A model generated the notes under the pieces. The model was not told the DNA's origin. It did not search any database and saw only the letters and a list, made by a program, of their open reading frames with translations. From Fusobacterium perfoetens (lineage in GTDB: Bacteria > Fusobacteriota > Fusobacteriia > Fusobacteriales > Fusobacteriaceae): a stretch of 64,000 bases of DNA. Positions 25,785-35,651 of this stretch are shown here, piece by piece (positions within the stretch are counted from its first letter, which is position 1; every line of letters begins with the position of its first letter). The stretch is from the NCBI RefSeq assembly GCF_021531595.1, contig NZ_JADYUD010000006.1, forward strand, positions 1 to 64,000, given 5' to 3'. Both the position numbers and the translations under genes were made by a program.

Positions 25785-26393
25785 ATGATAATAAAACAAG
25801 CAGAATTTGTTAAATCTGCTGTATATGAAAAAGATTATCCTGAAGAACTTTCCAACATAGAATTTGCTTTTGTAGGAAGGTCAAATGTAGGAAAATCTTC
25901 TCTTATAAACAGCATAACAAGAAGAGGAAAACTTGCTAGAATAAGTAAGACTCCAGGAAGAACTCAGCTTATAAATTATTTTATAATAAATAATGAATTT
26001 TTCCTTGTAGATTTACCAGGATATGGATTTGCTAAAGTTCCTAAAGCTATGAAAGCTGAATGGGGACAAACGATGGAAAGATATCTTGCAAGCAAAAGAA
26101 AAAAACTTGTTTTTGTTCTTCTTGATATAAGAAGAGTTCCCACAGCAGAAGATATGGATATGCTTCACTGGCTTGATCACTTTGATATTCCATTTAAAAT
26201 TATTTTTACTAAAATGGATAAAGTGTCAAATAATGAGAAGTTTAAATGTTTAAAAGCAATAAGAACTAAGCTTGAATTTCATAATGAAGATGTATTTTTC
26301 CATTCTTCATTAAAAGATACAGGCAGAGATGAAATATTAGATTATATTGAAGAAGTTTTAAATGAAGAAAAAATAAAACAGGAGGGAAATTAA
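25785..26393 (+). CDS. engB: Ribosome-biogenesis GTPase YsxC/EngB
   Basis: A 202-aa small GTPase for 50S assembly. G1 GRSNVGKSS is near 29-37, G2/G3 GRTQLINYF and DLPGYGFAKV near 60-80, and G4 TKMDK near 146. Its stop codon shares a base with the valS ATG (TAATG), implying translational coupling. Confidence 0.96.
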   Translation: MIIKQAEFVKSAVYEKDYPEELSNIEFAFVGRSNVGKSSLINSITRRGKLARISKTPGRTQLINYFIINNEFFLVDLPGYGFAKVPKAMKAEWGQTMERYLASKRKKLVFVLLDIRRVPTAEDMDMLHWLDHFDIPFKIIFTKMDKVSNNEKFKCLKAIRTKLEFHNEDVFFHSSLKDTGRDEILDYIEEVLNEEKIKQEGN

Positions 26394-29053
26394 TGAAAGA
26401 ACTGGAAAAAATCTATTCTCCTAGTGAAATTGAAAAAAAATGGTATAAGCACTGGGAAGAATCTAAGTATTTTGCTGCTACTTTAGATGATGGTAAGGAG
26501 AACTATTCAATAGTCATCCCTCCTCCAAATGTAACAGGAATACTTCATATGGGGCATGTTTTAAATAACTCTATTCAAGATACTCTTGTAAGATACAACA
26601 GAATGACAGGAAAAAATACTTTATGGCTTCCAGGATGTGACCATGCTGGTATTGCAACTCAAAATAAAGTAGAAAGAAAACTTGCTGAAGAAGGACTTAC
26701 AAAAGAAGATTTAGGAAGAGAAGAATTCTTAAAAAGAACTTGGGAATGGAAAGAGGAGCACGGAGGAATAATAACTAATCAGCTTAGAAAACTTGGAGCT
26801 TCACTTGACTGGGACAGAGAAAGATTTACAATGGACGAAGGACTTTCAGAAGCTGTAAGACATATATTTGTTGATTTATATAATGATGGACTTATTTATC
26901 AGGGAGAATATATGGTAAACTGGTGTCCAAGATGTGGAACAGCTCTTGCAGATGATGAAGTTGACCATGTGGAAAAACCTGGAAATTTCTGGCATATTAA
27001 ATATCCTGTAAAAGATACAGACAAGTTCCTTATAATTGCAACTACAAGACCAGAAACAATGCTTGCCGATGTTGCTATTGCAGTAAATCCTAATGATGAA
27101 AGATACAAAGAATTTGTAGGTAAGAAAGCAATACTTCCATTAGTAGGAAGAGAAATAGAAATTATAGCTGATGAATATGTTGATATGGAATTTGGAACAG
27201 GAGCTTTAAAAATTACTCCTGCTCATGATCCTAATGACTTTAACATTGGAAATAAATATAATCTTCCAATTATAAATATGATGACAGCTGATGGAAAAAT
27301 CGTAGAAGATTATCCAAAATATGCAGGGCTTGATAGATTTGAAGCAAGAGAAAAAATCGTTGAAGATTTAAAGGCCGAAGGATATCTTGTAAAAATAGAG
27401 CCACATAATCATAATGTAGGAACATGTTATAGATGTGGAACTATAATTGAACCAAGAGTTTCTAAACAATGGTTTGTAAAAATGGAACCTCTTGCAAAAA
27501 GAGCTCTTGAAGTAGTAAGAAACGGCGAAATTAAAATAATGCCTAAGAGAATGGAAAAAATATATTATAACTGGCTTGAAAATATAAGAGACTGGTGTAT
27601 TTCAAGACAACTTTGGTGGGGACACAGAATACCTGCATGGTATGGACCTGACCAAAAAATGTTTGTTGCAATCAGTGAAGAAGAAGCAATGAAACAGGCA
27701 GAAGTTCATTATGGAAAAAAAGTTGAACTTGTTCAAGAAGAAGATGTTCTTGATACATGGTTCTCATCAGCACTTTGGCCTTTCTCAACTCTTGGATGGC
27801 CTGAAAAAACAAAATCTCTTGAAACTTTCTATCCTACTTCAACACTTGTAACAGGTGCTGATATTATATTCTTCTGGGTAGCAAGAATGATTATGTTTGG
27901 ACTTTATGAAATGGATGAAATTCCATTTAAAAATGTATTTTTCCACGGAATAGTAAGAGATGAAATAGGAAGAAAAATGTCTAAATCTTTAGGAAACTCT
28001 CCTAATCCTTTAGATCTTATTGAAAAGTATGGAGCAGATGCTATAAGATTTGCGATGATATATAATACTTCTCAAGGACAAGATGTTCATTTCTCTGAAA
28101 AACTTATTGAAATGGGAAGAAACTTTGCAAATAAAATGTGGAATGGTTCAAGATTTGTTATTATGAACCTAGAAGGATTTGATCCAACAAAAGTTGATAA
28201 GTCAAGACTTAAATATGAGCTTGTTGATAAATGGATATTCTCAAGACTTAACGAAACAGCAGCAGAAGTAGCAGATAAACTTGATAAATTCCTTCTTGAT
28301 GAAGCAGCAAAAGCTGTATATGAATTTTTAAGAGGAGATTTCTGTGACTGGTATGTTGAAATGGCAAAAATAAGACTTTACAACTCTGAAGATGCTGATT
28401 CAAAACTTACAGCACAATATGTGTTATGGACAGTTCTTGAAGCAGGAATGAGACTTCTTCATCCATTTATGCCTTATATAACAGAAGAAATCTGGCAGAC
28501 AATAAAAGCAGAAGGGGATACAGTAATGCTTGCACAATATCCTGTTGCTGATGAAAGATTAATAGATAAAGATGCAGAAAAATCTTTTGAATATATTAAA
28601 GAACTTATTTCTTCATTAAGAAACATAAGAGCAGAAGCTGGAATTTCACCTGCAAAACCAGCAAAAGTTGTAATCAAATCTTCTGATGACAGTGAACTTG
28701 AGACAATAAAAGAAAACTATTTCTTTATAACAAGACTTGGAAATCTTGAATCTATTGAATATGGAAAAGATATGGAAAAACCTGCTCAAAGTGGATTCAG
28801 AGTTACAGGAAATTCAGAAGTATATATGATACTTACAGGTCTTCTTGATGTAGAAGCAGAAGTTAAAAAATTACAAGCTCAGCTTACTAAAGTTGCAGCT
28901 GAACTTGAAAAGATGAATGCTAAACTTTCAAATGAGAAGTTTACTTCAAAAGCTCCTGCTCATATTTTAGAAAGAGACAGAAGAATTCAGAAAGAATACC
29001 AAGATAAATTTGATAAACTTTCTGAAAATATTAAAGAATTACAAAATCAATAA
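26393..29053 (+). CDS. valS: Valyl-tRNA synthetase
   Basis: An 886-aa class I synthetase. The HIGH motif appears as PPPNVTGILHMGH near 43-55, an editing CP1 domain follows (TTRPETMLADVAIAV near 222), and KMSKS is seen as GRKMSKSLGNS near 526. The C-terminal coiled coil (about 820-886, VEAEVKKLQAQLTKVAAELEKM) is the tRNA-binding arm. Last gene of the tig-valS cluster. No T-box leader is present upstream. Confidence 0.98.
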   Translation: MKELEKIYSPSEIEKKWYKHWEESKYFAATLDDGKENYSIVIPPPNVTGILHMGHVLNNSIQDTLVRYNRMTGKNTLWLPGCDHAGIATQNKVERKLAEEGLTKEDLGREEFLKRTWEWKEEHGGIITNQLRKLGASLDWDRERFTMDEGLSEAVRHIFVDLYNDGLIYQGEYMVNWCPRCGTALADDEVDHVEKPGNFWHIKYPVKDTDKFLIIATTRPETMLADVAIAVNPNDERYKEFVGKKAILPLVGREIEIIADEYVDMEFGTGALKITPAHDPNDFNIGNKYNLPIINMMTADGKIVEDYPKYAGLDRFEAREKIVEDLKAEGYLVKIEPHNHNVGTCYRCGTIIEPRVSKQWFVKMEPLAKRALEVVRNGEIKIMPKRMEKIYYNWLENIRDWCISRQLWWGHRIPAWYGPDQKMFVAISEEEAMKQAEVHYGKKVELVQEEDVLDTWFSSALWPFSTLGWPEKTKSLETFYPTSTLVTGADIIFFWVARMIMFGLYEMDEIPFKNVFFHGIVRDEIGRKMSKSLGNSPNPLDLIEKYGADAIRFAMIYNTSQGQDVHFSEKLIEMGRNFANKMWNGSRFVIMNLEGFDPTKVDKSRLKYELVDKWIFSRLNETAAEVADKLDKFLLDEAAKAVYEFLRGDFCDWYVEMAKIRLYNSEDADSKLTAQYVLWTVLEAGMRLLHPFMPYITEEIWQTIKAEGDTVMLAQYPVADERLIDKDAEKSFEYIKELISSLRNIRAEAGISPAKPAKVVIKSSDDSELETIKENYFFITRLGNLESIEYGKDMEKPAQSGFRVTGNSEVYMILTGLLDVEAEVKKLQAQLTKVAAELEKMNAKLSNEKFTSKAPAHILERDRRIQKEYQDKFDKLSENIKELQNQ

Positions 29054-29155: not shown

Positions 29156-30451
29156 TTATTTTTCAGTTTTTGCTTTTAATTTAGCAGCTTTTCTAATAGG
29201 AGCAGCTACAGAACCTATAATAATACTGATTAAACATGGAAGAACCCATACAAATCCTTCTTTTGCAAGAGGGATATTTAAAAGAGCATTTGAAAGAGAA
29301 GTAATTCCGAAAGTACTTGCTCCAACTTCAAGTGTAATTACAACAAGAGTTGTATATGTTGCTAGTCTGTAAACAAGAACATGACTTACTCCAAATATAT
29401 TTAAAAGAATAAGAATGATTGTAACAGGATATAAAATACATAAAACAGGAACAGAAAGTTTTACTATAAAGTCAACTCCTTCTATTGCAACAACACCAGA
29501 GAAGACACAGATAATAACTGACCATACTTTATAAGATATAGGTGTAAATCTTGAGAACCAGTCACTTGAAATAGCAACAAGCCCTACAGATGTAGTAAGA
29601 CATGCAGTTGCAACACAGATACCGAAAGCAATTTTTCCAGCAGAACCAAGAGTAACTTCAGCAAGATAAAGAGCAGCACTTGTAGTAGAGAAAGTTCCTA
29701 CACCACTTACTTTTGCTCCAAGGAACATAAGACTGAAATAGATAAGTCCTAAACCAATTGCTGCAATAAGACCTGAACCAGATAAGAAATATCTTTGTTC
29801 TTTTTCATCAGTTATTCCTTTTCCTTCAAGACCTTTAACAATGACTACACCAAATATAACAGAAGCAAGAGCATCCATTGTTTGATAACCACTTACAAAT
29901 CCTTTTGAGAATACACTTGTAATATGTTTATCAACTGCAGTTCCAATGTCTCCAGTAATTCCAAGTATAGCTATTGCAGCAAGAATAACAAGAATAATAG
30001 GAGTTAAAAATTTTCCAATAATATCAGTTATTTTTGATTCTCTTATAACAAGAATAAGAGTAAGACCAAAGAAAAGCACAGCTGTAATAATAGAAAGCAT
30101 TTTTGGATCAGTATTTGGAAAAGAAGGAAGAACTCCCATTTCAAAAGTAGTTGCTCCAGTTCTTGGAATAGCAAATAGAGGTCCTATTACAAGAACAAGG
30201 GCTGTACAATAAAGAGTATTAAATCTTGAAGAAATTTTTACAGAGAAATCTTCAAGTCTTCCTACTTTTGTGAAAGCAAGAACTCCAAGAAGAGGAAGTC
30301 CTACACCTGTTAATAAAAATCCTATTCCTGCAAGAAGCCAGTCTTTTCCCATTTCAATTCCAAGAGAGGGAGGGAAAATAAGGTTCCCAGCACCAAAGAA
30401 CATAGCAAATAAAGCAAAACCTAAAATTAAAACTTCTTTTTTCCTATTCAT
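29156..30451 (-). CDS. brnQ: Branched-chain amino-acid cation symporter BrnQ (LIVCS family)
   Basis: A 431-aa inner-membrane carrier importing Leu, Ile and Val with a cation. The N-terminus RKKEVLILGFALFAMFFGAGNLIFPP is the LIVCS hallmark, and about 12 hydrophobic segments follow. AGGAGGATTTT before the ATG supplies the ribosome site. A promoter, a BCAA-rich leader ORF and a terminator precede it, implying attenuation by BCAA supply. It stands alone between two terminators. Confidence 0.95.
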   Translation of the reverse strand: MNRKKEVLILGFALFAMFFGAGNLIFPPSLGIEMGKDWLLAGIGFLLTGVGLPLLGVLAFTKVGRLEDFSVKISSRFNTLYCTALVLVIGPLFAIPRTGATTFEMGVLPSFPNTDPKMLSIITAVLFFGLTLILVIRESKITDIIGKFLTPIILVILAAIAILGITGDIGTAVDKHITSVFSKGFVSGYQTMDALASVIFGVVIVKGLEGKGITDEKEQRYFLSGSGLIAAIGLGLIYFSLMFLGAKVSGVGTFSTTSAALYLAEVTLGSAGKIAFGICVATACLTTSVGLVAISSDWFSRFTPISYKVWSVIICVFSGVVAIEGVDFIVKLSVPVLCILYPVTIILILLNIFGVSHVLVYRLATYTTLVVITLEVGASTFGITSLSNALLNIPLAKEGFVWVLPCLISIIIGSVAAPIRKAAKLKAKTEK

Positions 30452-30494
30452 AAAATCCTCCTAAAAGTTGTTTAAAATAATTATTCACACTAAT

Positions 30495-30524
30495 AAAAAA
30501 ACAGCCGTAGTAAATTAGGCTGTT
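30495..30524 (-). terminator. Attenuator terminator upstream of brnQ
   Basis: On the minus strand AACAGCC (30524-30518) pairs with GGCTGTT (30506-30500) around an 11-base loop, followed by a T run. It lies between the leader peptide ORF and brnQ, 44 bases before the brnQ ATG. The left arm and loop share ACAGCCTAA with the liv attenuator. Confidence 0.75.
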
Positions 30525-30586
30525 CATAATTTTAAATATAAGTTTAAAACATCAAATAAGTGTGTTTTGTATAACTTAAGGAATTC

Positions 30587-30670
30587 CTAATATACTTTAG
30601 AGTTCATATTCAATTTAATGCTTTGTATGACTATCAGGCTTAATATGAATATGACTGCTATGTGTAACAT
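30587..30670 (-). CDS. Branched-chain-amino-acid-rich leader peptide of brnQ
   Basis: A 27-codon ORF starting MLHIAVIFILSLIVIQ, with an AAGGAG site six bases before the ATG at 30670. It lies between a consensus promoter and an intrinsic terminator. Of residues 2-15, ten are Ile, Leu or Val, encoded with GTC, CTG and ATA codons. This is the expected architecture of a ribosome-stalling leader peptide. A small single-pass membrane protein is the alternative. The stop region ATTAGG could pair with CCTAAT in the terminator. Confidence 0.6.
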   Translation of the reverse strand: MLHIAVIFILSLIVIQSIKLNMNSKVY

Positions 30671-30710
30671 GTGAAACTCCTTTTTTAAAATATTTGTTTA
30701 TTACATGAAA

Positions 30711-30739
30711 ATTTTATCAAAGAAACAAAAGCATGTCAA
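30711..30739 (-). promoter_or_regulatory. brnQ promoter
   Basis: On the minus strand TTGACA (30739-30734), 17-base spacer, TAAAAT (30716-30711). It fires about 35 bases before the leader peptide ATG. The remaining stretch 30740-30892 is AT-rich with no ORF; only a weak TAACAAA/TTTGTTA hairpin (about 30846-30875) might end the liv operon. Confidence 0.8.
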
Positions 30740-30892: not shown

Positions 30893-31621
30893 TTATGCTC
30901 CAAGATAAGCTTTTTTAATATCAGGATTATTTAAAAGTTCTTGAGCAGGTCCTTCAAGAGTAATTTTTCCTGTTTCTATAACATAGGCATAATCAGCAAT
31001 AGAAAGTGCCATTTTTGCATTTTGTTCAACAAGAAGGATAGTAACACCATCTTCTTTTAATTTTTTAATGACAGAAAAAATTTCTTTAACAAAAAGAGGA
31101 GAAAGTCCCATTGATGGTTCATCTAAAATTAAAAGTTTAGGTCTGCTCATAATAGCTCTTCCCATAGCAAGCATTTGTTGTTCTCCTCCTGAAAGAGTTC
31201 CTGCCATTTGATTTTTCCTTTCTGACATTCTTGGGAAATCTTTATAGAATTTTGCTCTGTCTTTCTCAAGGTTTTCAGGAGTGTCTTTAACAGTAAAAGC
31301 TCCTAGTTTAAGATTATCTTTAACTGCAAGCCTTGAAAAAATTCTTCTTCCTTCAGGAACTTGAGCAATTCCAGCTTGACAGATTAAGTGTGGTTTTTCT
31401 TTTGTAATGTCTTTACCACGGAAGATAATTTTTCCTTGTTTTGACTGAATAAGTCCCGAAATAGTTTGAAGAGTTGTTGTCTTACCTGCACCATTTGCAC
31501 CAATAAGAGAAACAATTTCTCCTTCTTTTACTTTAAGAGAAACTCCTTTTAGAGCATGGATATTATCATAATAGACATGTAAATCTTTAATTTCAAGCAT
31601 TGTTTTAGCTTCTGTATTCAT
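30893..31621 (-). CDS. livF: Branched-chain amino-acid ABC transporter ATPase LivF
   Basis: A 242-aa ABC ATPase. The ATG at 31621 (MNTEAKTMLEIKDL) is chosen because GGAGG lies nine bases upstream; a longer upstream reading would run into livG. Walker A GANGAGKT is near 41-48, signature LSGGEQQM near 142, and Walker B LLILDEP near 163. LivF proteins end with a short C-terminus as here. It is the last gene of livJHMGF and energises Leu/Ile/Val import with LivG. Confidence 0.95.
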   Translation of the reverse strand: MNTEAKTMLEIKDLHVYYDNIHALKGVSLKVKEGEIVSLIGANGAGKTTTLQTISGLIQSKQGKIIFRGKDITKEKPHLICQAGIAQVPEGRRIFSRLAVKDNLKLGAFTVKDTPENLEKDRAKFYKDFPRMSERKNQMAGTLSGGEQQMLAMGRAIMSRPKLLILDEPSMGLSPLFVKEIFSVIKKLKEDGVTILLVEQNAKMALSIADYAYVIETGKITLEGPAQELLNNPDIKKAYLGA

Positions 31622-31625
31622 AAAA

Positions 31626-32405
31626 TTATTCCTCCTCCTGTCCAAGATATGCAGTGACAACTGCAGGTGTATTGATAACTTCAATAGGATCTCCAGCTGC
31701 AATAGTAGTTCCGTGATCAAGAACAACTAATCTTTCACATATTCCAAGAACAAGCTTCATATCATGTTCAATTAAAAGAATTGCAATATTGAAACGATCT
31801 CTTATTAAACGGATAGTATTCATAAGCTCTTCTGTTTCAGTAGGATTCATTCCAGCTGCAGGTTCATCAAGCAGAAGAAGTTTTGGATTTGTTGCCATTG
31901 CACGAGCTATTTCAAGCTTTCTTTGTTTTCCATAAGGAAGATTTCCTGCCATAGTATCTGCATATTGGTCAAGATCAAAAATCTTAAGAAGTTCAAGAGC
32001 TTTCTCTCTTGCTTTCTTTTCTTCTTTCCAATAATTTGGGAAACGGAAAATACCAGTTAATATTCCATATTTCATATTGAAATTATTTGCTACAAGAACA
32101 TTATCAAGAACAGACATATATTTGAAAAGTCTTATATTTTGGAAAGTTCTTGCAAGACCTTTTTTTACAAGTTTAAATGTTGGAGTTTTTGTTACAGGTT
32201 CTCCATTAAAATGATATTCTCCACTTGTAGGTGAATATACTCCTGTAATAATATTGAAAACAGTTGTTTTACCAGCACCATTTGGTCCGATAAGTCCAAC
32301 AAGTTCATTTTCTCTTATTTCAAGATTAAAATCTGTTACAGCTTTTAATGCACCGAAGGTAATAGAGATGTTTTTTGCACTTAGTACCACTTTATTATTG
32401 TTCAT
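31626..32405 (-). CDS. livG: Branched-chain amino-acid ABC transporter ATPase LivG
   Basis: A 259-aa ABC ATPase. The start at 32405 (MNNNKVVLSAKNI) has an AAGGAGGGT site nine bases upstream and overlaps the livM stop region by 11 bases. Walker A GPNGAGKT is near 39-46, the signature reads LPYGKQRKLEIARA, and Walker B LLLLDEPAAGMNP carries the LivG-type insertion. The C-terminal GDPIEVINTPAVVTAYLG is characteristic. Confidence 0.95.
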   Translation of the reverse strand: MNNNKVVLSAKNISITFGALKAVTDFNLEIRENELVGLIGPNGAGKTTVFNIITGVYSPTSGEYHFNGEPVTKTPTFKLVKKGLARTFQNIRLFKYMSVLDNVLVANNFNMKYGILTGIFRFPNYWKEEKKAREKALELLKIFDLDQYADTMAGNLPYGKQRKLEIARAMATNPKLLLLDEPAAGMNPTETEELMNTIRLIRDRFNIAILLIEHDMKLVLGICERLVVLDHGTTIAAGDPIEVINTPAVVTAYLGQEEE

Positions 32406-33372
32406 CTTTACCCTCCTTATTTTTGAAAAATCTTTTGATAATTGGTGTAATTTGAAATTCTTTACGCCCAAATAATCCAGTTGGACGGAATATCATAGTA
32501 AGTATTAATAAAAGTGAATAAATAATCATACGATAATCAGAGAATCCACGAAGCACTTCAGGAAGCACAGTAAGTGCAATTGCTGATAAAATAGATCCAG
32601 TGAAACTTCCCATTCCTCCAAGTACAACTATAGTAAGAATATTGATTGAATAGTTAAAGTCAAATTGTTTTGCTCCTAAAATTCCTAGATGATGAGCATA
32701 TACAGCTCCTGCTACACCTGCAAAAACAGCTGATACAGTGAATGCAAATGTTTTATAATAAGTAGTGTTTACTCCTGAAGCTCCACTTGCTATTTCATCA
32801 TCACGGATAGAAAGAACAGCACGGCCATGACGGCTTGTCATAAGTGAGAACATCATCATAACAGAAATAATCATTACAAAATAAATTATTGTAAAATTAC
32901 TGTTTGTACGAGGAATACCACGAAGTCCTTGAGCTCCTCCTGTAAATTTAAAATATTCTATTAGAACTCTTATGATTTCTCCAAAAGCAAGAGTAATGAT
33001 TGCAAGGTAGTCACCATTAAGTCTAAGAGCAGGAATACCAATAATAATTCCAACTATACCAGCAACAATTCCTCCAATAATAAGAGCTACAATATATCCA
33101 GGAAGTCCGTCAATAATACCAGATTTAGAAAAAAGAGCAGCAGCATAAGCACCTACTGACATAAATCCAGCATGACCTATTGTAATCTGTCCAAGGCAAC
33201 CAACTGTTATATTAAGACTTACTGCAAGAATAATATTGATACAGATAATAATTAATATACCAGTCTGATATCTAGAAATTATTCCTGAACCAATAAGACT
33301 TCCAAGAACTGCATAAAGAACCAGAACCAGTATAAGAGTAAATGTGTAACTTAATTTTTTATATTTATCCAT
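32395..33372 (-). CDS. livM: Branched-chain amino-acid ABC transporter permease LivM
   Basis: A 325-aa inner-membrane permease with about nine hydrophobic segments. Family signatures include GCLGQITIGHAGFMSVGAYA near 58 and LRLNGDYLAIITLAFGEIIR near 118. It pairs with LivH to form the channel. It is 13 bases after livH and overlaps livG. Confidence 0.95.
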   Translation of the reverse strand: MDKYKKLSYTFTLILVLVLYAVLGSLIGSGIISRYQTGILIIICINIILAVSLNITVGCLGQITIGHAGFMSVGAYAAALFSKSGIIDGLPGYIVALIIGGIVAGIVGIIIGIPALRLNGDYLAIITLAFGEIIRVLIEYFKFTGGAQGLRGIPRTNSNFTIIYFVMIISVMMMFSLMTSRHGRAVLSIRDDEIASGASGVNTTYYKTFAFTVSAVFAGVAGAVYAHHLGILGAKQFDFNYSINILTIVVLGGMGSFTGSILSAIALTVLPEVLRGFSDYRMIIYSLLLILTMIFRPTGLFGRKEFQITPIIKRFFKNKEGKDEQ

Positions 33373-33385
33373 GTGAAGAATCCTC

Positions 33386-34270
33386 CTATACCTTTTCTCT
33401 TATATTTTTACCTAAAATACCTGTAGGTTTAACTAAAAGTACAACAATAAGTATTGCAAAAACAAAAGCATCAGCAAGCTGAGAAGAAAGATATGCTCTT
33501 GTAAGACTTTCTACAATTCCAAGAATAAATCCTCCAAGAACAGCACCTGGAAGAATTCCAATTCCTCCAAGAACAGCAGCAATGAAAGCTTTTATTCCTG
33601 GCATAGAACCCATAAGAGGTTGAACTTGAGGATAAGCAGCAACATAAAGAACGGCAGCAACAGCAGCAAGTCCACTTCCTATAGCAAATGTAAGTTGAAT
33701 AGTATGATCTACATTAATTCCAACAAGTCTTGCAGCACCATAGTCTTCACTAGTAGCTAACATAGCTTTTCCATATTTAGTCTTTTTCATAAAATATTGA
33801 AGACCTACAGAAAGAACGATTGTAACAATGATAGTAACAATAGTTCCAAAGTTAAGGTGAAGAGCTCCAAAAGTAAGAGGAGGTTGTGTAAACACCTTAG
33901 GGAATGGTCTTGTATTTGGCGTAAATAATTTCATAAAAAGATTTTCAAGTAATAAGCTTACTCCTATGGCTGTGATAAGGTTAGAAATTCTTGGAGAATT
34001 TCTAAGAGGTCTGTAAGCAACTCTTTCAGTAAACATTCCTAAAAGGACACAAACAATGACAGCAGGTATCATTGTAAGCCATACGGGTAATCCCATTTTT
34101 GTAAAAGCTGGAATACAGAAAAGTGAAATGTATGCTCCAACCATTATGATATCCCCATGTGCAAAGTTGATTAACTGTGCAATTCCATAAACCATGGTAT
34201 ACCCAAGTGAAATAAGAGCATAGATGCTTCCTATTTGTAAACCGTTGATAATTTGAAGTAAAAATTCCAT
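33386..34270 (-). CDS. livH: Branched-chain amino-acid ABC transporter permease LivH
   Basis: A 294-aa permease. The N-terminal GLQIGSIYALISLGYTMVYG and INFAHGDIIMVGAY segments are the LivH hallmark; the EAA-like loop near GIKAFIAAVLGGIG (about 225) faces the ATPases. Ribosome site AGGAGAGA lies before the ATG. It is separated from livJ by an 84-base gap holding a strong hairpin. Confidence 0.95.
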   Translation of the reverse strand: MEFLLQIINGLQIGSIYALISLGYTMVYGIAQLINFAHGDIIMVGAYISLFCIPAFTKMGLPVWLTMIPAVIVCVLLGMFTERVAYRPLRNSPRISNLITAIGVSLLLENLFMKLFTPNTRPFPKVFTQPPLTFGALHLNFGTIVTIIVTIVLSVGLQYFMKKTKYGKAMLATSEDYGAARLVGINVDHTIQLTFAIGSGLAAVAAVLYVAAYPQVQPLMGSMPGIKAFIAAVLGGIGILPGAVLGGFILGIVESLTRAYLSSQLADAFVFAILIVVLLVKPTGILGKNIREKV

Positions 34271-34354: not shown

Positions 34355-35500
34355 TTATTTAGCTGGCTCAACAACAGAATCAAATGTGTATTCACCATTT
34401 ACTATTTTTAAAACAGTTACAGCTTTTACAGGATTATTCTTTTCATCAAATGTAAGATGTCCTGTAACACCACTGTAGTCAAGAGATTTTAAAGCATCTA
34501 CAACAGCTTGTTTTTCTGTAGTTCCAGCTTTTTCAATAGCAGCTTTTACCATGTAAGCAGCATCATAAGAAAGAGCAGAGAATGCAGAAGGTTCTTCATT
34601 ATAAGCTTCTTTATATGCTTTTAAGAAATTCTGAACTTTTTCTGATTGATCCTGTAATGAGTAGTGATTAGTGAAGTATGAATTTTCAATAGCTCCATAT
34701 GCACTAGGATCAAGAGTTTTAGCAACTCCGTCCCATCCATCAGGTCCTACAAAAGTAGCTTTAATTCCAACTTCTCTTGCTTGAGTTGTGATAAGTGCAA
34801 CTTGTTCATAGTAATCAGGAACTACAAGAACATCAGGATTAGTTGGAAGAATTTTTGTAAGCTGAGCTCTGAAATCTTTATCTCCATCAGAGTATCCTTC
34901 TTTAGCCACAACTTTTAAACCAAGTTTTTCAGCCTGTTCAATAAATGCTTTTGCAACTCCATCAGAATAATCATTTGAGTTATTTACAACAACAGCAACT
35001 GTTTCAGCATTAAGATTATTTTTAGCAAAGTTTGCAAGAACAACTCCTTGATAAGGATCTGTAAAACATACACGGAAAACATTTGGTCCAGCTTCGGTGA
35101 TATTGAATTGAGTTCCTGTAGGAGTAATCATAGGCATATTATCCTGAGCAGCAACTTCAGCAACAGCAAGAGATGGTTTTGAAGTGATATCTCCAATAAG
35201 AGCAACAACTCCTTCATCTACAAGTTTGTTATAAGCAGTAACAGCTTCAGTTGAATCTCCTTTTTCATCAAGAACAATATATTCAACTTGTTTTCCAAGG
35301 ATACCTCCATTTTTATTGATTTCCTCCATAGCAAGTTTTGATCCATTTGTAGAAGTAACTCCATAAATAGCAAGAGGCCCAGTTAGAGGTCCGATACCTC
35401 CGATTTTAACAACATCAGCTTCAGTTGAAGTTTCTTTTGCACCTCCACATGCAGTAAGAAGTAAAGCAGCTCCTAATAAAACAACATTAAATTTTTTCAT
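34355..35500 (-). CDS. livJ: Branched-chain amino-acid ABC transporter binding lipoprotein LivJ/LivK
   Basis: A 381-aa periplasmic binding protein of the type 1 fold, tethered by lipid: signal MKKFNVVLLGAALLLTACGG with the acylated Cys near 18. The mature domain starts VKIGGIGPLTGPLAIYG and has the LivJ-type TPTGTQF, SNDYSDG and FVGPDGWDG segments. It captures Leu/Ile/Val for LivHMGF. First structural gene after the liv leader; GGGGGAA lies before the ATG. Confidence 0.95.
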   Translation of the reverse strand: MKKFNVVLLGAALLLTACGGAKETSTEADVVKIGGIGPLTGPLAIYGVTSTNGSKLAMEEINKNGGILGKQVEYIVLDEKGDSTEAVTAYNKLVDEGVVALIGDITSKPSLAVAEVAAQDNMPMITPTGTQFNITEAGPNVFRVCFTDPYQGVVLANFAKNNLNAETVAVVVNNSNDYSDGVAKAFIEQAEKLGLKVVAKEGYSDGDKDFRAQLTKILPTNPDVLVVPDYYEQVALITTQAREVGIKATFVGPDGWDGVAKTLDPSAYGAIENSYFTNHYSLQDQSEKVQNFLKAYKEAYNEEPSAFSALSYDAAYMVKAAIEKAGTTEKQAVVDALKSLDYSGVTGHLTFDEKNNPVKAVTVLKIVNGEYTFDSVVEPAK

Positions 35501-35529: not shown

Positions 35530-35560
35530 TAAAAAAAGGACAACCTTGTTAGGCTGTCCT
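35530..35560 (-). terminator. Attenuator terminator upstream of livJ
   Basis: On the minus strand AGGACAGCC pairs with GGTTGTCCT (one G-U) around a TAACAA loop, followed by seven T's, 30 bases before livJ. The left arm and loop contain CCTAACAA, complementary to TTGTTAGG inside the leader ORF. Confidence 0.75.
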
Positions 35561-35651
35561 AAAACTACTAAAGTTATTATTTAAAAATATTTTTTATAAA
35601 ATAAACTTTTAAATGATATTTATGTATCATCTAAAAAATTAACTTATGCTA

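Follow-up and report, generated by a model that had tools for sequence, protein, structure and literature searches.

The stretch of DNA analysed here, called the window throughout, comprises the first 64,000 nucleotides of contig NZ_JADYUD010000006.1 of Fusobacterium perfoetens and carries on its minus strand the gene of the branched-chain amino acid (BCAA) carrier BrnQ. The region upstream of brnQ had been predicted to be a leader-peptide attenuator composed of a TTGACA-17-TAAAAT promoter, an AAGGAG site, a short open reading frame (ORF) rich in Ile, Leu and Val codons and an intrinsic terminator 44 bases before the gene. Our analysis located the promoter, the AAGGAG site and the hairpin with its U run where they had been placed, and reproduced the counts of 27 codons and of ten Ile/Leu/Val among residues 2–15 of the leader peptide. 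The brnQ locus consists of the following features:

30711 to 30739, minus strand: promoter of the brnQ leader by sequence, TTGACA-17-TAAAAT with a TG before the -10 (-35 TTGACA at 30739-30734, -10 TAAAAT at 30716-30711, spacer of 17 nt)
30677 to 30682, minus strand: Shine-Dalgarno site AAGGAG of the brnQ leader ORF
30587 to 30670, minus strand: brnQ leader ORF of 27 codons, MLHIAVIFILSLIVIQSIKLNMNSKVY, stop TAG
30632 to 30641, minus strand: candidate region 1, AAGCCUGAUA, partner UAUUAGG, weak and outside the minimum free energy (MFE) fold of the leader
30586 to 30596, minus strand: region 2, AGUAUAUUAGG, lying across the leader stop codon; identical in the congeners G031 and G034, though in another frame there
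30509 to 30519, minus strand: region 3, CCUAAUUUACU, terminator left arm and loop, pairing with region 2
30493 to 30525, minus strand: intrinsic terminator of the leader (regions 3 and 4 and a U run that ends at about 30495)
29156 to 30451, minus strand: brnQ, branched-chain amino acid carrier, the controlled gene (PF05525, E=4.7e-116)

The promoter is of the sigma-70 type, matches the consensus at 11 of 12 positions, has an extended -10 and ranks first among 21 promoter-like sites in 4 kb; a like promoter stands before the brnQ leader in G031 and G034. The terminator hairpin, GAACAGCC-N11-GGCTGTTT followed by the U run, was overlooked by an automated terminator scan with a loop limit of 8, and 44 nt separate its end from the brnQ ATG at 30451. 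The ATTAGG at the leader stop codon (TAT TAG G) is complementary to CCTAAT of the terminator, and this complementarity is longer than first claimed, as the AGUAUAUUAGG:CCUAAUUUACU duplex pairs at 10 of 11 positions with a single U.U mismatch and a predicted energy of -8.2 kcal/mol.

The composition of the leader peptide is not a matter of chance, because only two of the 21 ATG-initiated ORFs of 18–75 amino acids in the window that are preceded by a Shine-Dalgarno site reach at least nine Ile/Leu/Val among residues 2–15, namely the brnQ leader and the livJ leader described below. In the long ORFs of the window CTT makes up 61% of the Leu codons and CTG 1.8%, and GTC makes up 2.4% of the Val codons; in the brnQ leader GTC occurs twice, CTG once and CTT never. 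Its synonymous codons are rarer than those of window genes by more than 4 standard deviations, with none of 2000 resamplings as rare, and the brnQ leaders of G031 and G034 gave the same outcome when scored with the codon table of the window. The codon usage of the brnQ leader is thus unlike that of an ordinary small protein. At the level of sequence, the promoter, Shine-Dalgarno site and short ORF, the enrichment in cognate codons and the intrinsic terminator that make up an attenuator are all present.

A second attenuator, overlooked in the first reading of the window, lies 5 kb from the brnQ leader before livJ of the adjacent liv ABC operon (35531-35880, minus strand), and it is a stronger member of the attenuator family than the brnQ leader. 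Its features are:

35851 to 35880, minus strand: candidate promoter of the livJ leader, TTGCTT-18-TATACT, with like elements before other livJ leaders
35793 to 35808, minus strand: Shine-Dalgarno region AAGGAGG
35652 to 35792, minus strand: livJ leader ORF of 46 codons, MFLLLSIIFVICVILLIIRNTTKYADSFVRESLSHILLPLFKYNFL
35765 to 35780, minus strand: region 1, CUUAGCAUAAUAUUUG, from the MFE fold
35702 to 35712, minus strand: region 2, UUUUGUUAGGG
35546 to 35553, minus strand: region 3, CCUAACAA
35531 to 35559, minus strand: intrinsic terminator of the livJ leader, GGACAGCCUAACAAGGUUGUCC followed by U7
34355 to 35500, minus strand: livJ-like BCAA substrate-binding protein, first gene of the liv operon and the controlled gene (PF13458, E=1.4e-70)
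30893 to 34270, minus strand: livH, livM, livG and livF, between livJ and brnQ (ORFs, named from sequence and gene order)

The livJ leader ORF contains the codons GTC ATA TGT GTC ATA CTG CTG ATA ATA and is the match in the window to our leader sequence model R1 (E=1.9e-18), the training of which included this leader. UUGUUAGG sits at about the middle of the ORF, and with the pair UUGUUAGG:CCUAACAA here and AUUAGG:CCUAAU in the brnQ leader, the two switches, which lie 5 kb from each other, differ by a compensatory change. Since livJ-HMGF and brnQ share one strand and a pattern scan of the interval from livF to the brnQ promoter found no terminator, readthrough of the liv operon would also reach the brnQ attenuator. 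Upstream of the livJ leader, at 36060-36280, lies an intergenic element whose long inverted ends (GGGACTGTTG...CAACAGTTCC) match imperfectly and which resembles a miniature inverted-repeat transposable element, and on the other side of the locus valS (valyl-tRNA synthetase, named from sequence; 26393-29053, plus strand) is convergent to brnQ.

To follow this arrangement through the family, instances were collected from matches to a terminator pattern, from livJ upstream regions and from R1 matches, which gave 71 leaders in 26 Fusobacteriaceae genomes. Their targets are livJ paralogues (23, falling into three paralogues), ilvE (15), BASS transporters (8), peptide-binding proteins (6), leuA (4), an unnamed permease (4), brnQ (3), M20 hydrolases (3), lactate permease (2), and ilvB, Fe-ADH and MATE (1 each). 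Representatives of most target genes were confirmed with Pfam or NCBIfam, with MATE and the leuA of G050 named from sequence alone. The leaders follow a common plan, in which a Shine-Dalgarno site and an Ile/Leu/Val-rich ORF are followed by an RTTAGG-type element near the end of the ORF (region 2) and by a terminator with the complement in its left arm and loop (region 3). The terminator pattern CARCCTAA-N-GGYTG-TTTT has matches in 26 of the 61 family genomes, many of these matches with a leader ORF on one side and a BCAA gene on the other, and the same pattern read backwards has no match across the 61 genomes. Pattern matches that lacked a leader ORF (L054, L065-L068, L070, L075, L080, L089, L090, L139, L140, L144, L148) were dropped as ordinary terminators, and weak R1 matches (L196, L197, L200, L202, L205, L207, L208, L210, L211) proved to be coding or unrelated and were left out of the count. 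At E<=1e-4, R1 had no match in 37 other genomes of the phylum outside the Fusobacteriaceae. A DNA similarity search with the G034 leader recovered G031 alone, because the leaders diverge too fast.

The codons of the leaders match the downstream genes. The leuA leaders contain 47% Leu and 13% Ile, the livJ leaders 33% Ile and 17% Leu, and the ilvE leaders are rich in Ile; GTC accounts for 50% of the Val codons in family leaders versus the 2.4% in window genes. The third livJ of the genome to which the window belongs has a Leu-rich leader, as has the second livJ of G029, and from its leader codons the former is therefore suggested to be a Leu-preferring protein. The unnamed permease has no match in Pfam or NCBIfam (searched for L138); before it, L138 and L084 (G030, G032) carry a Met/Leu-rich leader (MAMLFMALNLIMILMLLMLLL), so this permease may be a Met/Leu transporter.

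The pairing of region 2 with region 3, the putative antiterminator, was followed in detail. An RTTA(A)GG element near the leader end, or a shifted complement, was present in 45 of the first 47 instances. Because the terminator search prescribed CCTAA, these bases of region 3 carry no independent weight; the base that follows them, region 2 and the replaced pairs do. The R of region 2 stands against the Y of CCTAAY as G:C in 28 cases, A:U in 8, G:U in 4 and A:C in none (Fisher p=1e-4 for distinct pairs, kinship ignored), and region 2 is the strongest leader partner of region 3 in 38 of 44 leaders. Among 67 distinct instances the native 2:3 duplexes have a mean of -7.59 kcal/mol versus -6.45 +/- 0.14 with region 3 permuted among leaders (0 of 5000 permutations). 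In 34 distinct ungapped pairs, three of which, misaligned by MAFFT, were scored against the structure, 79.9% of the cells are paired versus 73.3 +/- 1.3 after shuffling, 26 cells are changed on both sides versus 11.9 expected, and the covariation score is 0.307 versus 0.174 +/- 0.019 shuffled, all slid registers being lower (maximum 0.124). In several lineages the whole element has been swapped: UGUUAAGA:UCUUAACA at ilvE of G035 and G033, AACAAGAU:AUCUUGUU at ilvE of G031, GCUAAG:CUUGGC at ilvE of G030 and G032, and AUAUGUUAGA:UCUAGCAUAU at Fe-ADH of G034; leuA and ilvB of G054 and leuA of G059 likewise show replacement on both sides, and the swapped pairs include AAUAAUAUUAG:CUGAUAUUAUU. When the RNA is cut just after region 3, the predicted MFE structure is the 2:3 antiterminator in both window leaders, and on addition of the right arm it becomes the terminator; this switch in the predicted fold fits what an attenuator needs in order to decide during transcription. 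The 2:3 covariation together with the switch of the modelled nascent fold indicates that antiterminator and terminator exclude each other. Conservation of the reading frame, matching amino acid codons and covarying terminator and antiterminator pairs, which the original prediction had named as its check, were all found, mostly in the wider family.

Region 2 is kept as RNA, because it is read in all three frames, 16 leaders having TTAGG in frame 0, 28 in frame 1 and 7 in frame 2. AGTATATTAGG, for instance, is the same in all three brnQ leaders and reads KVY-stop in the window and KSILG in G031 and G034. This bears on the explanation that the ORFs encode small functional membrane proteins which are co-transcribed with transporters, the terminators merely tuning expression. 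The peptides do resemble a single hydrophobic helix ending in a basic tail, and close species conserve them fairly well, but their C-terminal frames differ over one conserved RNA element (KNYVRL, KIMLGL, KIY-stop, LKC-stop, or a stop inside the element as in the window brnQ leader), their lengths range from 23 to 58 codons, their composition tracks the downstream gene (Leu for leuA), and their codons are rarer than synonymous expectation, which makes this explanation scarcely credible.

Region 2 has an earlier partner as well. When each leader was folded from its start as far as region 2, 39 of 44, among them the window livJ leader, were predicted to have five or more of the final six bases of region 2 facing the initial 45 nt of the ORF (region 1); typical pairs are CUUAAC or CUUAGC with GUUAGG, CUAAUAAA with UUUAUUAG and CUAACAUUU with AAAUGUUAG. 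RNAalifold on the first MAFFT alignment, in which region 1 was misaligned, gave no pairs and was replaced by individual folds and anchored pair counts. The leader stop codon lies inside region 2 in the window brnQ leader and some others, and in most others it lies 28–73 nt further on.

Several observations weigh against the brnQ region being an attenuator of this kind, or against parts of the evidence for it. The window brnQ leader was not scored by R1 within E=5, and it is an exception to the predicted 1:2 pairing, its region 1 being weak. The covariation counts take in related sequences, and 7 of their 34 rows, those with altered elements, are pairs picked by eye. Where opp leaders carry UUAAGG, their 2:3 duplex is weak (-3.1 to -4.3), and another segment is a better partner than region 2. 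Across six congeners the brnQ leader is kept in two (G031 and G034), whereas in G030 and G032 the promoter and the CCTAAT terminator are kept and the leader ORF is gone, and in G033 and G035 neither the leader ORF nor the promoter and CCTAAT terminator is present. Finally, Ile/Leu/Val enrichment is lacking in a minority of leaders, which make up the NICWTT class before livJ2.

The G030 and G032 arrangement would fit a terminator controlled through binding of a ligand or protein to the leader RNA, i.e. a riboswitch or an antiterminator protein recognising CCUAAY, with the ORF being incidental, and the good conservation of region 3 is in line with this. The 2:3 pair covaries, however, with both sides replaced in several lineages, which a fixed protein site would forbid; the Shine-Dalgarno site, the ORF and its gene-matched codons recur, and no Rfam family reaches its threshold at the leaders. 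We therefore consider control by such a binder very unlikely. In these two genomes (L008, L009; about 60-140 nt before brnQ) the promoter is followed directly by a CCTAATTTA-type terminator, which is perhaps a remnant of a leader deletion or else a different control. A different conserved block, TAGATAACAATTTTTTTATTTTTTTGTTCGTATTT, precedes brnQ in several leaderless genomes among the Cetobacterium-like upstream regions L010-L020.

The NICWTT leaders touch on another explanation, namely translation-based attenuation that senses something other than BCAA-tRNA, for instance the overall speed of translation or nascent-chain arrest, and the presence of MATE, lactate permease and Fe-ADH among the contexts points in the same direction. 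Yet BCAA genes are most of the targets and codon content follows the gene, so that for the family as a whole this is highly improbable. The NICWTT class itself, before the second livJ in L071, L073, L132 and L135 (G018, G020, G021, G023), has a conserved NICWTT...SY.L.KC peptide with few Ile/Val codons and the same regions 1, 2 and 3; the signal sensed there may differ, in that these leaders may sense another amino acid or work by nascent-chain arrest.

Taken with these points, the brnQ upstream region is very probably a ribosome-mediated transcription attenuator. RNA polymerase would start at TTGACA/TAAAAT, and a ribosome would translate the 27-codon leader. With ample charged Ile-, Leu- and Val-tRNAs it would reach the stop codon in region 2 (AGUAUAUUAGG) and mask that region, leaving region 3 (CCUAAUUUACU) free to form the terminator, and transcription would end before brnQ. 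Under a shortage of charged BCAA-tRNAs the ribosome would stall on codons 2-15 and leave region 2 exposed, which would then pair with region 3 before the right arm of the terminator is made, so that brnQ would be transcribed. The timing during transcription, the stalling and the direction of the response, i.e. readthrough on BCAA starvation, we infer from this architecture. The livJ leader would act likewise, except that its ORF extends beyond region 2, and full translation would let region 1 re-pair with region 2 behind the ribosome, by which the terminator would be released. Because the stop lies 28-73 nt beyond region 2 in most leaders, such 1:2 re-pairing is the likely route back to termination in these long-ORF leaders.

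Leader-peptide attenuators of biosynthetic operons are known from enterobacteria as ilvL, ivbL and leuL, and in the trp-type paradigm region 2 follows the leader stop codon. The fusobacterial leaders share with ilvL, ivbL and leuL the short BCAA-rich ORF, the alternative 2:3 and 3:4 pairs with a predicted 1:2 pair, the intrinsic terminator and the gene-matched control codons, but in them region 2 is part of the ORF, often with 28-73 nt still to go to the stop, their main targets are transporters and ilvE, and no sequence relation is expected. The proposed mechanism is that of known ribosome-mediated attenuation, and what is new is the lineage, the regulon and the ORF topology.

In the open-access literature searched, leader-peptide attenuation is known from Proteobacteria, Actinobacteria and Firmicutes. 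Rli60 of Listeria monocytogenes and the ilvD leader of Staphylococcus aureus have a BCAA-rich leader ORF and alternative terminator and antiterminator structures, backed by mutants and reporters (PMC5864092, PMC5794164); unlike the multi-copy family of the Fusobacteriaceae, these concern a single ilv-leu operon each, in Firmicutes, where CodY acts too. The upstream ORF of ilvB in Corynebacterium is rich in Ile/Leu/Val and is followed by a terminator with a complementary antiterminator (PMC11109978, PMC10272879), but it serves one biosynthetic operon in Actinobacteria. BrnQ-family (LIVCS) transporters of Firmicutes are controlled by T-boxes, of which a survey found none in its Fusobacteria/Thermotogae genomes (PMC2494555); this too is starvation-responsive antitermination of BCAA carriers via uncharged tRNA, but the tRNA is bound directly and there is no ORF. 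In Rfam searches no T-box matched in the window or at seven leader loci, and no amino acid leader family reached its gathering score in the window or at leader loci, the sub-threshold Phe_leader match near brnQ (31 bits versus a gathering score of 55) lying on the opposite strand; with nothing at threshold, a T-box or a known Rfam leader family was rejected as the identity of the element. The same database identifies two S-adenosylmethionine (SAM) riboswitches elsewhere in the window (RF00162; 13503-13589 and 51563-51665, minus strand). Leader-peptide attenuation in Fusobacteriota has no account in the open-access papers searched, although an earlier mention in the subscription literature is possible, and the original statement that no attenuator of this kind was known for BCAA transport in fusobacteria holds within the same literature.

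We regard it as evenly balanced whether the leaders of the Fusobacteriaceae form one paralogous family of BCAA attenuators that would act as a regulon-wide sensor of BCAA-tRNA charging for both uptake and metabolism, with the switch inside the ORF and with most members shut off by re-pairing of the ORF start with region 2 and not by masking through the ribosome.

The genome of the window (99.94% complete) has no match to the Aminotran_4 (ilvE), ILVD_EDD or KARI_C domains, i.e. no ilvE, ilvD or ilvC, and therefore probably cannot make BCAA, so that uptake of BCAA should be essential. In this genome the attenuator was found on transporters only, namely on brnQ and the three livJ genes, and these leader-bearing genes should matter to the growth of their host when BCAA are scarce. 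As the codon content of a leader predicts the amino acid handled by its gene, the leaders offer a direct route to the annotation of unknown transporters. If the proposed mechanism is true, attenuation would rank among the principal means by which these amino-acid-feeding organisms regulate their BCAA uptake.
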